Shown piece after piece: positions 1 to 35,085 of a stretch of 35,085 nt of DNA. The notes beneath the pieces were generated by a model. The model saw only the letters and a list, made by a program, of their open reading frames with translations. It was not told the DNA's origin and made no database searches. The number at the start of each line of letters is the position of its first letter. The stretch's first letter is position 1. The stretch is from Anaerostipes butyraticus (lineage in GTDB: Bacteria > Bacillota > Clostridia > Lachnospirales > Lachnospiraceae). The stretch is from the NCBI RefSeq assembly GCF_016586355.1, contig NZ_BLYI01000065.1, positions 1 to 35,085 on the forward strand. Direction: 5' to 3'. A program made the position numbers and the translations under genes.

Positions 1-149
1 AAATCTCTATTTAAATTATAGATAGGAGGTAATATGCGAACATTAAAATTTATCATAACCGCCCAGAGCATCCAAAAAGACCCGGACTGCGATTTCTCCG
101 GAATCGTAGCTGGTACACAGGGTTATCTGCAGGCAGAGTTTTCGTTTTC
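1..149. repeat. Terminal redundancy, left copy (circular contig overlap)
   Basis: The first 149 bases are identical to 34937-35085. Gene order runs on sensibly across the join, because the invertible-segment repeat and the ribosome binding site of the first gene lie together there. The simplest reading is overlap at the ends of a circular or circularly permuted genome of about 34,936 bases, not a biological long terminal repeat. Confidence 0.9.
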
Positions 150-348
150 CGAGGAATGGGCAGGCTGCCGGATGGCGGCTGTATTTTCCAGCATGAGAAA
201 GGAATATCCGCAGCCGATTAAAAACGGCAGATGCGTAATACCAGCAGAAGCACTTACTTGGGATAACTTCGGAGTGCGGGTTGTCGGACAGAGAGAAAAT
301 TATCGCATAACAACGAACGAAATCAAGATAAAGCAGGAGAGAAGGTGA
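34..348 (+). CDS. Small baseplate/fibre-associated protein (hypothetical)
   Basis: This 104-residue protein is led by an AGGAGG site 4 bases before the ATG and is followed 4 bases later by the large BppU-type gene. It has no signal peptide or membrane segment. Its pattern of FSFSEEWAG near residue 37, an AVFSS strand, then IPAEAL and a short charged tail resembles small beta-sandwich proteins found next to BppU-type baseplate proteins in Firmicutes siphophages; this is family recall, not proof. Its start lies just outside the right-hand inverted repeat of the invertible fibre segment, so inversion leaves its ribosome binding site intact. A structural or assembly role in the baseplate is inferred from position. 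Confidence 0.75.
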   Translation: MRTLKFIITAQSIQKDPDCDFSGIVAGTQGYLQAEFSFSEEWAGCRMAAVFSSMRKEYPQPIKNGRCVIPAEALTWDNFGVRVVGQRENYRITTNEIKIKQERR

Positions 349-4410: not shown

Positions 4411-4459
4411 CCCTGACTCTTAATCAGGGTGTCGAGGGTTCGAACCCCTCATCGCGTAC
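4411..4459 (+). other. attP: attP core: 3' end of a tRNA-Lys(CTT) gene
   Basis: This segment matches the anticodon arm to acceptor end of a tRNA. There is a stem CCCTGA/TCAGGG around loop CTCTTAA (anticodon CTT, lysine), a T-arm GAGGG TTCGAAC CCCTC, and acceptor bases ATCGCGTA. No D-arm or 5' acceptor strand lies upstream, so it is not a functional tRNA here. It should restore the host tRNA on integration. It lies between two identical arm-type repeats and next to the integrase, the standard layout for tRNA-targeting temperate phages. Confidence 0.85.
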
Positions 4460-4480
4460 TGAAGATGCTGTTTTTGGCGG

Positions 4481-4533
4481 AAGCCGGGGATGGCATTTTT
4501 TCTTGCATTTATGCGGGTTTCCGGCTTTTTTCT
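4481..4533 (+). terminator. Terminator-like hairpin downstream of attP core
   Basis: AAGCCGG at 4481-4487 pairs with CCGGCTT at 4521-4527, followed by TTTTTCTTTTT. The loop is long and T-rich. It may terminate read-through from the tRNA or late operon after integration, or serve as the replacement terminator for the host tRNA. Confidence is moderate because of the loop length. Confidence 0.5.
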
Positions 4534-4630: not shown

Positions 4631-5731
4631 TTAAAAATTCAATGCAGAATTGACGGCAGCAGTCGAGTCTTCTTTTTCCATCATGAGATGATTGTATACA
4701 TTCAAAACAGTAGCTTCCTTATCTCCCATGAGTCTTGCAACCATCTTTATTGATATCTGCGGTATCTGATAGCATAAGTTTGTGCAGTAGTTGTGCCTGA
4801 AAATATGAGCTGTAAGGCCTTCTATTGGTTGAGGCGATACTTTATTCATCTCCTTTATGATTCTTTCCCACATGCGGCGGTATGCACTCCTGGTCATTAA
4901 ATTTCCTTGTCTGGTAGTAAATAGATATGTTTTTCCGGATTTTTTTAGGTTTTCGACATATTGTTTTATATCATCATACACAACATCCGGGATCGGAAGA
5001 GTGCGGTATCCGTTTTTAGTTTTGGGCTCTTTGATAGCGATAAAATCATATGCCTTGCTAATATTCAGTGTTTGGGACTCCATGGATATATCTTCTGCGG
5101 TTAGCGCCAGGGCTTCGCCTCGTCTGATTCCGCAGCCGTAAAGCAGATAGACGTATATTTTGTCCTGTGCATTAAAATCTGCCTTAAAAACGGCTTCTCG
5201 TTCGTGTGGCAACAGGGCTCTTTTTTCAGGTGCTTTATATTTTATCTTTTGCACGCCTCGAAATATATCATCAGCGACATTGGCTGCGATCAATCGTTCT
5301 GCCACAGCAGAATCAACAATCTGCCGAAACGTCATCATGATTTGTTGCTGCGTTCTTGCCCTGCCGTTCGCATTATTGAGTACGATTTGCAGATGTACCT
5401 GCTGAATATCCTGCATCCTGATAAGTGCCAGTTCAGATAGGTACATTTCAATGATTCTGTCATACATTTCTTTTGTCCGGTTGGACGCAGAACTTTTATA
5501 CAGAGTTTTCCACCTGCGGGCATATGCCAGAAATGTGATATCATCCTTTTTCACGACATTCCGTTCTTTTACCTGGTATTCCAGCTCTTTTACTTTACGC
5601 TCCAGATCCTTGCTGCTCTTCCTGGATCGGAGATGTTTATAGTGCTTTTTCCCAGACTGGGTATACGTGCCATCCCAGACACGGGTAGAAAAATATCCGT
5701 CTTTCCCTTTTTTATACTTTGCTACAGCCAT
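4631..5731 (-). CDS. int: Tyrosine recombinase integrase (Tn916-type)
   Basis: The protein integrates and excises the prophage at the adjacent attP. I chose the ATG at 5731 (366 residues) because AAAGGTGG lies 5 bases upstream. An upstream in-frame GTG at 5740 falls inside that site. Residues about 5-60 form an AP2-like arm-binding domain (KYKKGKDGYFSTRVWDG). A SAM-like core-binding domain follows at about 60-165, then the catalytic domain. Visible catalytic residues are R203 in CGIRRGE, the KTKNGYR hairpin lysine, H309-x-x-R312 in HIFRH, and Y346 in VYNHL. All key residues are present, so it should be active. It is the only recombinase of the tyrosine or serine type in the genome. Confidence 0.96.
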   Translation of the reverse strand: MAVAKYKKGKDGYFSTRVWDGTYTQSGKKHYKHLRSRKSSKDLERKVKELEYQVKERNVVKKDDITFLAYARRWKTLYKSSASNRTKEMYDRIIEMYLSELALIRMQDIQQVHLQIVLNNANGRARTQQQIMMTFRQIVDSAVAERLIAANVADDIFRGVQKIKYKAPEKRALLPHEREAVFKADFNAQDKIYVYLLYGCGIRRGEALALTAEDISMESQTLNISKAYDFIAIKEPKTKNGYRTLPIPDVVYDDIKQYVENLKKSGKTYLFTTRQGNLMTRSAYRRMWERIIKEMNKVSPQPIEGLTAHIFRHNYCTNLCYQIPQISIKMVARLMGDKEATVLNVYNHLMMEKEDSTAAVNSALNF

Positions 5732-5740
5732 AATTACCAC

Positions 5741-8469: not shown

Positions 8470-8532
8470 ATGGGAAACAGAGAAAAAATCGAAGAGGCAA
8501 TAAAAGTTGATGAAAACGAGGCAGGTAAATGA
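8470..8532 (+). CDS. Tentative 20-residue leader peptide before the YqaJ gene
   Basis: A 20-residue frame (starts MGNREKIEEA) is preceded by AAAGGAGAA and its TGA overlaps the next ATG as ATGA. The YqaJ gene has no good site of its own apart from GGCAGGTAA, so translation may be coupled through this peptide. It is too short to be sure. Confidence 0.35.
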   Translation: MGNREKIEEAIKVDENEAGK

Positions 8533-9203
8533 ATAAGATAACACAGATCGCACCGGGGATCCAGCGCATCCAGTTCGAGACTTTTGAAGAGTGGCTGGAT
8601 GCCAGGCATGGGATTGGTGGATCTGATGCAAGTGCTGTGATTGGGAAGAACCCTTATAAGACGAATCAGGAGCTATGGGTAGAAAAGACTGGAAGAGCAG
8701 TTGCTCCAGACATATCTGACAAGGATTACGTTAAGTATGGACATGATGCAGAGCCGCTCCTCCGGGAGTTGTTTGCTTTGGATCATCCGGAATACAAGGT
8801 TGAGTACTTCGGAGACAACATGATCCGGAACGAAAAGTATCCATGGGCGCATGCCTCCCTGGATGGAGAGTTGACCGATCAGGATGGAAGAAAAGGGATC
8901 CTGGAGATCAAGACCACAAACATCCTGCAGTCGATGCAGCGGGAAAAGTGGAATGATCAGATCCCGGACAATTACTACATACAGATTTTACACTACCTGC
9001 TCGTTACAGAGTATGAGTTCGTAGAGCTCAGGGCACAGCTGAAATCGGTATGGCAGGGGCAGATCCGGTTGAACACCAGAGATTATCGTATTGAACGGAA
9101 AGAAGTAGAAGAAGACATTGCGTATATAAAAGAACAGGAAGAAGCGTTCTGGCAGCAGGTGAAAACAGACCGGAAGCCATCGTTGATTCTTCCGGAGATA
9201 TAG
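8529..9203 (+). CDS. YqaJ-type viral recombination exonuclease
   Basis: This 224-residue PD-(D/E)XK nuclease of the YqaJ/lambda Exo-like family would resect double-strand ends to give single strands for RecT. Family landmarks are GIGGSDASAVIG near residue 33, HASLDGEL for the Asp, ILEIKTT for the E-x-K, and YYIQILHYL for the following helix. It heads a three-gene block with DUF1351 and RecT proteins, the standard Firmicutes phage recombination set. Its length is usual for the family. Confidence 0.92.
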   Translation: MNKITQIAPGIQRIQFETFEEWLDARHGIGGSDASAVIGKNPYKTNQELWVEKTGRAVAPDISDKDYVKYGHDAEPLLRELFALDHPEYKVEYFGDNMIRNEKYPWAHASLDGELTDQDGRKGILEIKTTNILQSMQREKWNDQIPDNYYIQILHYLLVTEYEFVELRAQLKSVWQGQIRLNTRDYRIERKEVEEDIAYIKEQEEAFWQQVKTDRKPSLILPEI

Positions 9204-18125: not shown

Positions 18126-18193
18126 GGAGCATATCGCCAACGGCAGGTGTGCAGGGTCGCGCCCTGTGTCCCGGTTCGACTCCGGGTGCTCCG
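18126..18193 (+). tRNA. tRNA-like gene, isotype uncertain
   Basis: A cloverleaf can be drawn: acceptor GGAGCAT with GTGCTCC, D-arm CGCC/GGTG with loop AACGGCA, anticodon stem GCAGG/CCTGT, and a perfect T-arm CCCGG TTCGACT CCGGG. At about 68 bases it is short. The variable loop is only about 2 bases and position 32/38 of the anticodon loop could pair. The loop GTCGCGC would read anticodon CGC (alanine GCG), but the acceptor lacks the usual alanine G3-U70 pair, so isotype is unsafe. It may be degenerate or specialised. It lies between a terminator and the terminase region. Confidence 0.6.
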
Positions 18194-18233
18194 CTTTTGC
18201 AGATAGATTAGATTGAGGTGGGGAGGTAGTAAG

Positions 18234-33733: not shown

Positions 33734-34600
33734 ATGGCATTAGATATTGTAACAAGTTATCAGGGATTTGATCACATCACAGCGGATCAGATAGCAGATT
33801 TTCAGCGAGGATTGCTGGGGGACAGCTGTATCTTGCCGGTTGGGAGCAAAATGGAAGTAAATATACAGACGGCAAACCAGATCACAGTAGCAGACGGAGT
33901 TGTTGTTTACGATGGGCGAGAAATCCATATCCCATACGGGACGTCCGAAAACGTAGCGATCACATCCGGCACGCAAGGCATGATGAGAAATGACATCGTC
34001 TGCCTACAATATAACAGAGATGAATCCAGCGGAGTTGAAAGCGTAGAATTTGTCACGATTGCTGGAACACCAGCGGCCAGCGATCCACAGGATCCAGCAT
34101 ATAGCAACCTGGATATCAGGACAGGCGTATTTATGAGCCAGAAACCGTTCTGCCGAGTGCGATTGGATGGAACGGCGATCGAGGGCATTGATATGCTGGT
34201 TGCCGCGTTTGACTTAGGAATCTATCAATTAAATAGAGATTTAATCGATACAGATTGGATTTATCCTACAATTTCTGGCGGATTTGCGGAATACACAAGC
34301 GGATGGCGGCCACGTTATCGAAAAATAGGAAAATGGGTAGAGATATGCGGAGCGGTAAGGCCATCAAAAAATCTTTCTGTCGGTCAAGATCCAATTACAA
34401 TTTTTACAATGCCAGAAGGATTTAGACCACCAGTGCAGATACCGCAGTTATGCCAAGGTACGCTTCGATCTATCTGGTACTTTGAGGTATCTAATAATGG
34501 AAATGTTACTGTTTCTCGATCTCGGAGTAGTTTCAATTCATATGATAGTGCCGACACAGATGCTTGGTTCCCGTTTAATACCATGTATTTTGTGGGTTAA
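33734..34600 (+). CDS. Tail fibre with invertible C-terminal receptor-binding region (expressed orientation)
   Basis: This 288-residue protein starts right after the hub stop with GGAAGGAG upstream. Residues 1 to about 162 are a conserved attachment part (SYQGFDHITADQIADFQRG, TVADGVVVYDGREIHIPYG). From IYQLNRDL (residues 163-170, within the left inverted repeat) the rest is a variable domain with RYRKIGKWVEICGAV, FTMPEGFRPP and a closing FNTMYFVG. The silent cassette downstream encodes a related end starting IYNLNRDL in the same frame. Flipping the segment would give a fibre of about 280 residues with a new tip. This is a phase-variable receptor-binding protein. Confidence 0.9.
   Translation: MALDIVTSYQGFDHITADQIADFQRGLLGDSCILPVGSKMEVNIQTANQITVADGVVVYDGREIHIPYGTSENVAITSGTQGMMRNDIVCLQYNRDESSGVESVEFVTIAGTPAASDPQDPAYSNLDIRTGVFMSQKPFCRVRLDGTAIEGIDMLVAAFDLGIYQLNRDLIDTDWIYPTISGGFAEYTSGWRPRYRKIGKWVEICGAVRPSKNLSVGQDPITIFTMPEGFRPPVQIPQLCQGTLRSIWYFEVSNNGNVTVSRSRSSFNSYDSADTDAWFPFNTMYFVG
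34220..34243 (+). repeat. Left inverted repeat of invertible fibre segment
   Basis: The 24 bases encode IYQLNRDL. They match the reverse complement of 34936-34959 with only two mismatches. The shared central block is TAAATAGAGATTTA, itself a dyad (TAAAT/ATTTA around AGAG). This is the likely recombination site. Confidence 0.82.
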
Positions 34601-34602
34601 TA

Positions 34603-34959
34603 TTAATCAGCTGGAAAATCAATGGAGATTGACAACCATGCACCTGCAGGTATTGGAATATTCTGTGTTGTACCGTATTTCTGGACAACCAAAGAACCAT
34701 CGACGTTCGCAGTCAAATAAAAACGGTTCATCCCGCCGCCTTGGCAGACGTTATAAGCTGTTCGGATTGGGCGATATTCTTCCGGTAAGACAGCAACCGT
34801 TGTCTGCTGATCGGCTGAGATCTGATTAACCGGCTGTATAGTACCTGAGATATAGATCTTCCCTCCTTTTTTACGATAACGTAAATCGTTTTGAAAGTTG
34901 CTTGTCATGGAGAGATTTTGCCATTCAGTATCAGCTAAATCTCTATTTAAATTATAGAT
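34603..34959 (-). pseudogene. Silent alternative tail-fibre 3' cassette
   Basis: On the minus strand 118 codons run from IYNLNRDLADTEW to SISIDFPAD and stop 2 bases from the stop of the active gene. It has the same motif order as the active tip (YRKKGGKIYISGTIQPV, TVAVLPEEYRP, YNVCQGGGMNRFYLTANVDG, NVDGSLVV) but different residues at many positions. It has no start or promoter of its own in this orientation, because the frame extends only into antisense of the next gene. It becomes the expressed 3' end if the segment inverts. Confidence 0.88.
34936..34959 (-). repeat. Right inverted repeat of invertible fibre segment
   Basis: This is the partner of 34220-34243 in inverted orientation (two mismatches in 24). 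It lies directly upstream of the AGGAGG site of the next gene (window positions 1-23 after circularisation), so inversion keeps that site intact. Confidence 0.82.
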
Positions 34960-35085
34960 AGGAGGTAATATGCGAACATTAAAATTTATCATAACCGCCC
35001 AGAGCATCCAAAAAGACCCGGACTGCGATTTCTCCGGAATCGTAGCTGGTACACAGGGTTATCTGCAGGCAGAGTTTTCGTTTTC
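34937..35085. repeat. Terminal redundancy, right copy
   Basis: These 149 bases repeat positions 1-149 exactly and mark closure of the circular genome. They include the right inverted repeat of the fibre switch. Confidence 0.9.
34970..35085 (+). CDS. Partial repeat of the first gene (contig overlap)
   Basis: The first 38 codons of the gene at 34-348 appear again here because of the terminal overlap. It is not an extra gene. Confidence 0.9.
   Translation, partial: MRTLKFIITAQSIQKDPDCDFSGIVAGTQGYLQAEFSF

Follow-up and report, generated by a model that had tools for sequence, protein, structure and literature searches.

A probable receptor-binding tip switch in a temperate phage of Anaerostipes butyraticus, with no linked invertase and a candidate recombinase in the host

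Inversion of the Mu G segment or of the P1 C segment is expected to change phage host range. In both, tail-fibre tips are swapped by inversion, through the invertases Gin and Cin respectively, as summarized in PMC6109161. That paper (Mavrich et al., 2018) also contains the nearest described relatives of the locus considered here. One is the Rin receptor-binding-protein shufflon of Bifidobacterium prophages, in which a linked tyrosine enzyme is at work. The other is a second Bifidobacterium prophage locus, where about 500 bp, comprising a small gene together with the 3' end of the adjacent one, are inverted and no recombinase flanks them; its authors suggested an invertase supplied in trans, and the section concerned names no candidate enzyme. 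Tyrosine recombinases that act on other kinds of target are also relevant: PsrA inverts coding segments of hsdS at short repeats (PMC7096588, PMC4948785); RecV of Clostridioides difficile is required for some, not all, switches (PMC5903667); Mpi of Bacteroides fragilis, as cited in PMC6109161, is one enzyme serving several loci; and an inverton group of 33 members, 32 of them from Clostridia, is tied to a tyrosine recombinase group in PMC11892184.

The window, that is, the whole 35,085-nucleotide stretch analysed, is an entire contig (C65) of the A. butyraticus assembly (G000; 3.17 Mb, 85 contigs). It is a temperate phage, with matches to integrase, transcriptional regulator, RecE-like exonuclease (8529-9203), terminase, portal, tape measure, Dit, tail protein and endolysin, and its ends overlap by 149 bp (34937..35085, identical to 1-149), closing it as a circle of about 34.9 kb. 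An identity block at 4412..4505, the 3' part of a tRNA-Lys(CTT) gene, is shared with the starts of two other contigs (C38 and C75), the first 148 bp of which are phage sequence including this block, followed by other sequence. Since the block is a tRNA 3' part and two other contigs start there, integrated and excised forms of the phage seem to coexist in the sequenced culture. A tRNA-Ala(CGC) gene is found at 18126-18194, directly upstream of the terminase gene. No match to this phage was found by blastn against INPHARED, and no closer phage in IMG/VR with the fibre and the preceding tail gene as queries: the six loci recovered there are 32-40% identical, and no tip-like inverted pair was seen in them.

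At the end of the window lies the arrangement on which the original prediction was founded, and its coordinates and anatomy are borne out: two convergent, homologous tip cassettes enclosed by inverted repeats. In the present orientation the tail fibre or receptor-binding protein is encoded at 33734..34600 on the plus strand (288 aa), with a constant stalk that is not exchanged (residues 1-162; 33734..34219) and an active tip, the predicted receptor-binding head (34220..34600). The alternative tip, presumed silent, is encoded on the minus strand at 34603..34959 (118 aa, in the same frame from the repeat) and is a homologue of the last 126 residues of the fibre (31% identity over 106 aligned columns, E 3e-16). 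The two TAA stops (34598-34600 on the plus strand, 34605-34603 on the minus strand) are two bases apart. Bounding the invertible segment of 740 bp are the left repeat at 34220..34243 (plus; core TAAAT-AGAG-ATTTA at 34230-34243) and the right repeat at 34936..34959 (minus; core at 34936-34949), 24 nt each with two mismatches, encoding IYQLNRDL and IYNLNRDL as had been claimed. The arms are ATCTATCAATTAAATAGAGATTTA and ATCTATAATTTAAATAGAGATTTA, and both copies of the core are TAAATAGAGATTTA: an inverted TAAA[TC]-N4-[AG]TTTA with the same N4. By way of the end overlap, the right repeat minus one base is also present at 1-23, and across the contig joint, 3' of the switch and outside the invertible segment, is a 104-aa gene (34..348, plus strand).

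This inverted pair is the best in 33734-34960, with a score of 18; none of 500 mononucleotide shuffles did as well (maximum 15). Nucleotides match at 22 of 24 positions in the arms versus 140 of 330 in the rest of the codon-aligned tips, and identical residues have identical codons in 7 of 7 cases inside the arms versus 13 of 28 outside. Because the arms are thus conserved at the DNA level, codons included, homology of the proteins does not account for the repeat. The second tip keeps an open frame throughout its 118 codons and is homologous to intact tips elsewhere; its own matches are to four Enterococcus phages only, at 29-36%. Its silence, which the original prediction had asserted, is presumed: an in-frame ATG is found at 35007, beyond the repeat, giving a minus-strand frame of 134 aa, so that the second tip may have some expression of its own. 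Taken as a whole, the segment is very probably a functional site-specific tip switch.

For the copy in this particular culture, flipping is inferred. No copy of this exact phage in the opposite orientation turned up in the databases searched, and no part of 34000-35085 is present on any other readable contig of the assembly; some short contigs read as N and may hide a junction. A circumstantial sign that this copy switches is the position of the contig start: its first base corresponds to 34937, one base from 34936, where an assembly graph holding both orientations would branch, and the overlap of 149 bp left by the assembly at the contig ends compares with 148 bp at the att branch. The chance of a random contig start within one base either side of any of four branch coordinates is 12/34936, about 3e-4, for a coincidence noticed post hoc.

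What such a switch would exchange is indicated by the predicted fold of the active tip. A model built with tip relatives (mean pLDDT 84.6) matches the receptor-binding proteins of lactococcal phage TP901-1 (best E 1.3e-4), Listeria phage PSA and lactococcal phage p2. In the full-length fibre model the tip is poor (pLDDT 61.5); a structure search with that model also put the p2 receptor-binding protein first. The active tip is therefore predicted to have the fold of the receptor-binding heads of lactococcal phages, in which case inversion would exchange the head and keep the stalk, and a change in host recognition may be inferred.

As in Mu and P1, two alternative fibre 3' ends lie between inverted sites; unlike those phages, which have a linked small serine invertase, the window has none that could be matched. 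As had been predicted, a search for serine recombinases (PF00239) gives no match on the phage contig; on the readable contigs of the assembly it finds six, all in open frames of 549-629 aa and all outside the phage. Since no small serine invertase was matched beside the segment, the switch is not of the Gin/Cin type, and the comparison with the G segment made in the original prediction applies to the logic and not to the enzyme class, the linked relatives described below using tyrosine rather than serine recombinases. Also in agreement with the prediction, the phage has a single tyrosine recombinase match (PF00589; one of nine on the readable contigs of the assembly), the integrase, encoded at 4631..5740 on the minus strand, which is some 4.6 kb past the switch once the contig ends are joined. 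Neither a linked XerD-like tyrosine invertase nor an XerA-like recombinase gene was found beside the tips in the PF00589 search of the window.

The likeness to Rin is closer: a constant stalk is combined, by DNA inversion at a site in the coding frame, with exchangeable heads (about 100 aa in Rin). However, the linked form of Rin has an XerD-like tyrosine enzyme and the window no linked recombinase, and the window has two heads only and TAAAT-AGAG-ATTTA instead of the 11-bp rix site; neither arm is the rix site TTCCCTAACCC. Fibres bearing rix-like repeats (TTCCGTAACCC; TTCCCTAACCC in L180) are also among the matches of a profile of the window stalk. The second Bifidobacterium locus, unlike the window, has an 8-bp site (CAGGGTTA) and genes without identifiable function. 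Trans-supplied inversion has nonetheless already been suggested for that one phage locus, and the window switch is a variant on it. PsrA and its 15-bp IR1 can be likened to the present case by description only: enzymes of related type adjoin TAAAT-N4-ATTTA sites in hsdS genes in the loci surveyed here, whereas the PsrA type acts on adjacent restriction genes. With RecV and Mpi the likeness is that a single enzyme may serve more than one switch, although their targets are host loci and here the target would be a phage. In the literature searched, which takes in few subscription papers, no report of this type of switch was found, PMC6109161 being the nearest.

The window fibre matches 5 of 61 genomes of relatives and 25 of 397 genomes of the family, and among the fetched fibre loci of those genomes tip-region inverted pairs occur only in G356 (two prophages), G217 and G225. 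With the stalk profile, 142 ORFs were matched in the fetched loci (109 after identical ORFs were dropped); in 24 of the 109, near-duplicates such as L126 and L160 included, an inverted pair scoring at least 16 joins the tip region to downstream DNA, a score reached by 0 of 109 in each of two control comparisons (maxima 14 and 15). Weaker pairs (L114, L129, L146, L173) are left out of this count of switches. Five of the 24 have rix-like repeats (L144, L147, L148, L158, L181), and L046 and L132 have strong inverted pairs but quite different sites.

An XerA-like tyrosine recombinase (480-640 bits) adjoins the fibre in 13 of the loci listed, where the sites are mostly of the TTAAAT-AGCA type, like GAATTAAAT-AGCA (TTAAAT-GGCA in L099 and L100); the window has an inverted coding-frame site of the TTAAAT-AGNN type at its own stalk-tip joint. 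In 27 loci hand-picked from the 109 for tabulation, the repeat has the same codon phase in all 27, although for the linked loci L095 and L097 the repeat picked by the script is a different one. Agreement with the arms of TAAAT-N4-ATTTA is 10 of 10 positions in the window and in L127, and 5-9 in the remainder of the set. A perfect dyad is evidently not required, since the sites of L124 and L126 match at 8 of 10 positions and most sites of the linked class at 7-9; the motif is also AT-rich.

For fibres with no adjacent recombinase, nine whole records were searched (L124, L126, L160, L116, L113, L123, L127, L157, L173). PF00589 matches nothing in eight of them and one frame in L127, at the end of the record; six (L124, L126, L160, L113, L123, L173) have a large serine recombinase, with an additional sub-threshold serine recombinase match in L113. 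The most direct evidence comes from two of these IMG/VR records, L124 and L126, which are one phage in two orientations: the flanks are 99.7% and 99.8% identical, the 755-bp tip segment is 100% identical and inverted, and the active tip of one is the second tip of the other. Neither has a PF00589 match, an absence that is weak for L126 (16.5 kb) compared with L124 (38.6 kb), as virus records may be fragments; each has one serine recombinase, in a 499-aa frame. Tip switches can thus flip without a linked enzyme, and the central claim of the original prediction, an invertible receptor-binding tip in a phage with no invertase of its own, finds here a switch of the same kind caught in both states.

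The tip also exists in fixed form: L024 (3773-4612), in a genome of the same genus (G001), is 45% identical; its tip, 60% identical, sits on a different stalk, with neither an inverted pair nor a second tip found beside this fibre. In another genome (G129), contig C103 starts partway through a related fibre gene, near residue 169, where stalk and tip join (L032), perhaps another assembly break at a tip switch.

The enzymes linked to tips belong to a wider family, with relatives at eighty loci in named genomes and close relatives in eleven IMG/VR records. Six of the named loci (L183-L188), all from Lachnospiraceae, have enzymes 62-74% identical to the linked enzyme that group with the 13 linked enzymes in a tree made by a quick method, with long branches flagged. 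No fibre of the window's family was found at these six loci, and so only 13 of the 19 enzymes labelled as fibre-linked in the tree are shown to be linked. In the other 74 loci (L189-L262; Bacillota, Bacteroidota and others), which are not independent and include some near-copies, an inverted TAAA[TC]-N4-[AG]TTTA pair with the same N4 lies near the enzyme in 40, versus none for a control motif; single sites number 163 versus 11. Of nine ORFs overlying such sites, hand-picked from the 40 loci, eight match Methylase_S, seven of them above the Pfam cut-off, and these are read as hsdS shufflons. The core in the window shares the architecture of the sites beside these XerA/HsdS-related recombinases, a pattern that ties phage tips to hsdS-type recombinases. 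In L189, L190 and L192, matches to tail genes lie near the enzyme, with sites such as TAAAT-AGAA-ATTTA and TAAAT-AGCA-ATTT; as these tail genes differ, the switch may have passed between tail proteins that are unrelated.

One strong match to this family is present in the host. A profile built from two linked enzymes, without the host protein, was used to score all nine tyrosine recombinases in the assembly: an XerA-like enzyme on contig C47 (331 aa from its ATG) reached 245.7 bits, versus 64.6, 51.1, 27.4 and 17.1 for four other host tyrosine recombinases. It is 35-36% identical to the linked enzymes, and its position in the recombinase tree is unsure. Outside the phage switch the genome has 12 copies of the pattern TAAATNNNNATTTA, versus 6 for a reversed-pattern control, and one of the 12 is just before the start of the C47 gene, with an inverted partner site. 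The stretch between these two sites, upstream of the gene, is inverted over 191 bp in a sister genome (G010; 97.9% identity on the opposite strand), between colinear flanks of 88% and 92.5% identity, and the sister enzyme is 97% identical; the C47 gene therefore adjoins a segment that is flipped at sites with nearly the arms of the phage. The central four bases are AGAG in the phage and CATT/AATG in the host segment, a difference that tyrosine recombinases are expected to tolerate if the two partner sites agree with each other. Relatives of C47 at E<=1e-40 are found in 6 of 11 genomes of the genus, its own included, and the gene is thus not universal there. A segment of about 191 bp between an XerA-like recombinase and a divergent small gene is seen at L073 (11640-11980; the C47 locus), L288 and L289, and a third similar site lies further upstream of the host segment.

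From these comparisons a mechanism can be proposed. The 740-bp segment would be a two-state site-specific DNA switch in which the stalk of the fibre stays and its receptor-binding head is replaced. The DNA would be cut and rejoined by a tyrosine recombinase of the XerA/HsdS-shuffling type at the two TAAAT-AGAG-ATTTA cores, and the inversion would join the stalk in frame to the other head. As the phage has no match to an enzyme of this type, it would be supplied in trans, most likely by the host C47 gene. That an XerA/HsdS-type tyrosine recombinase acting in trans works the switch is, in our judgement, probable; that it is the C47 enzyme in particular is suggested by profile score and neighbouring sites, with somewhat less than even prospects. 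Weighing against C47 are the differing central bases, its identity of only 35-36% to the linked enzymes, the weaker profile matches of four other host recombinases and its patchy occurrence in the genus; the case from the site pattern is weakened by the imperfect, AT-rich sites of many relatives and by the quite different ones of L046 and L132. More tentative again, one host enzyme may flip both the chromosomal switch and the phage head, the phage being tuned to it.

The original prediction had left three sources of recombination side by side, and the host or co-resident enzyme is the one that best fits the present results; the other two are disfavoured. The phage integrase in a second role has two points in its favour: no other tyrosine recombinase was matched in the phage, and such a match is present in L127 too, which alone among the other tabulated loci agrees at 10 of 10 arm positions. 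On the other side, a BLAST search with the window integrase at E<=0.01 does not bring up the L127 frame, the profile built from the linked enzymes leaves the integrase off its list even at E<=10, and the att block of the phage, the tRNA-Lys 3' part, is unlike the repeat, as the prediction had held, with nothing within 3 mismatches of TTAAATAGAGATTTA near it. Six of the records with no adjacent enzyme lack any PF00589 match and carry a large serine recombinase instead, yet L124 and L126, two of the six, are inverted relative to each other: the class of integrase varies (large serine there, tyrosine in the window and L127) while the switch stays, which disfavours the integrase as the common enzyme and makes this explanation quite improbable. 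Homologous or annealing exchange between the repeats, perhaps aided by the RecE-type exonuclease that the phage does encode, is very improbable: repeats are only 13-28 bp in several relatives, they have a dyad form and a single codon phase, and their DNA is conserved well beyond the surrounding tips, which recombination by length alone does not explain.

A different source in trans would be a co-resident or passing mobile element instead of a resident host gene. The eleven IMG/VR records with close relatives of the linked enzyme are consistent with this, as is the case of G356, in which one prophage fibre with inverted sites and no adjoining enzyme (L033) and another with the enzyme (L062) have nearly the same site, CTAAAT-AGAA-AATT. 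However, the first of these prophages has in its packaging module an unlinked enzyme of its own (L061, 14153-15235; a 36% relative of the tip-linked recombinase) that could serve instead, and in the window's own assembly C47 is the sole strong match; a mobile source is therefore regarded as unlikely. It is also conceivable that the second tip is a frozen relic of a past inversion or cassette gain that no longer flips: a single orientation of this copy is seen on the readable contigs, and L024 offers an example of a related tip with no partner. Against this, the second tip is open throughout and homologous to intact tips, the repeats are intact, and the contig begins at the junction; a relic is improbable, to about the same degree as a second role for the integrase. 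The reading preferred here remains a switch worked by a recombinase supplied in trans.

If a host enzyme does work the switch, the phage would gain tip variation without carrying the enzyme for it, its host range would hinge on the state of the switching system in the host, and prophage host range in some gut bacteria would depend on phase-variation enzymes of their hosts. Phage switches with borrowed enzymes would then be a recurrent class alongside those that carry their own, and one that scans seeking a recombinase beside the switch would miss. Among the fibre loci, two pairs of near-identical ones with rix-like repeats (L158/L161 and L174/L178) have tips that are mutually rearranged, as expected of active Rin-type shufflons.
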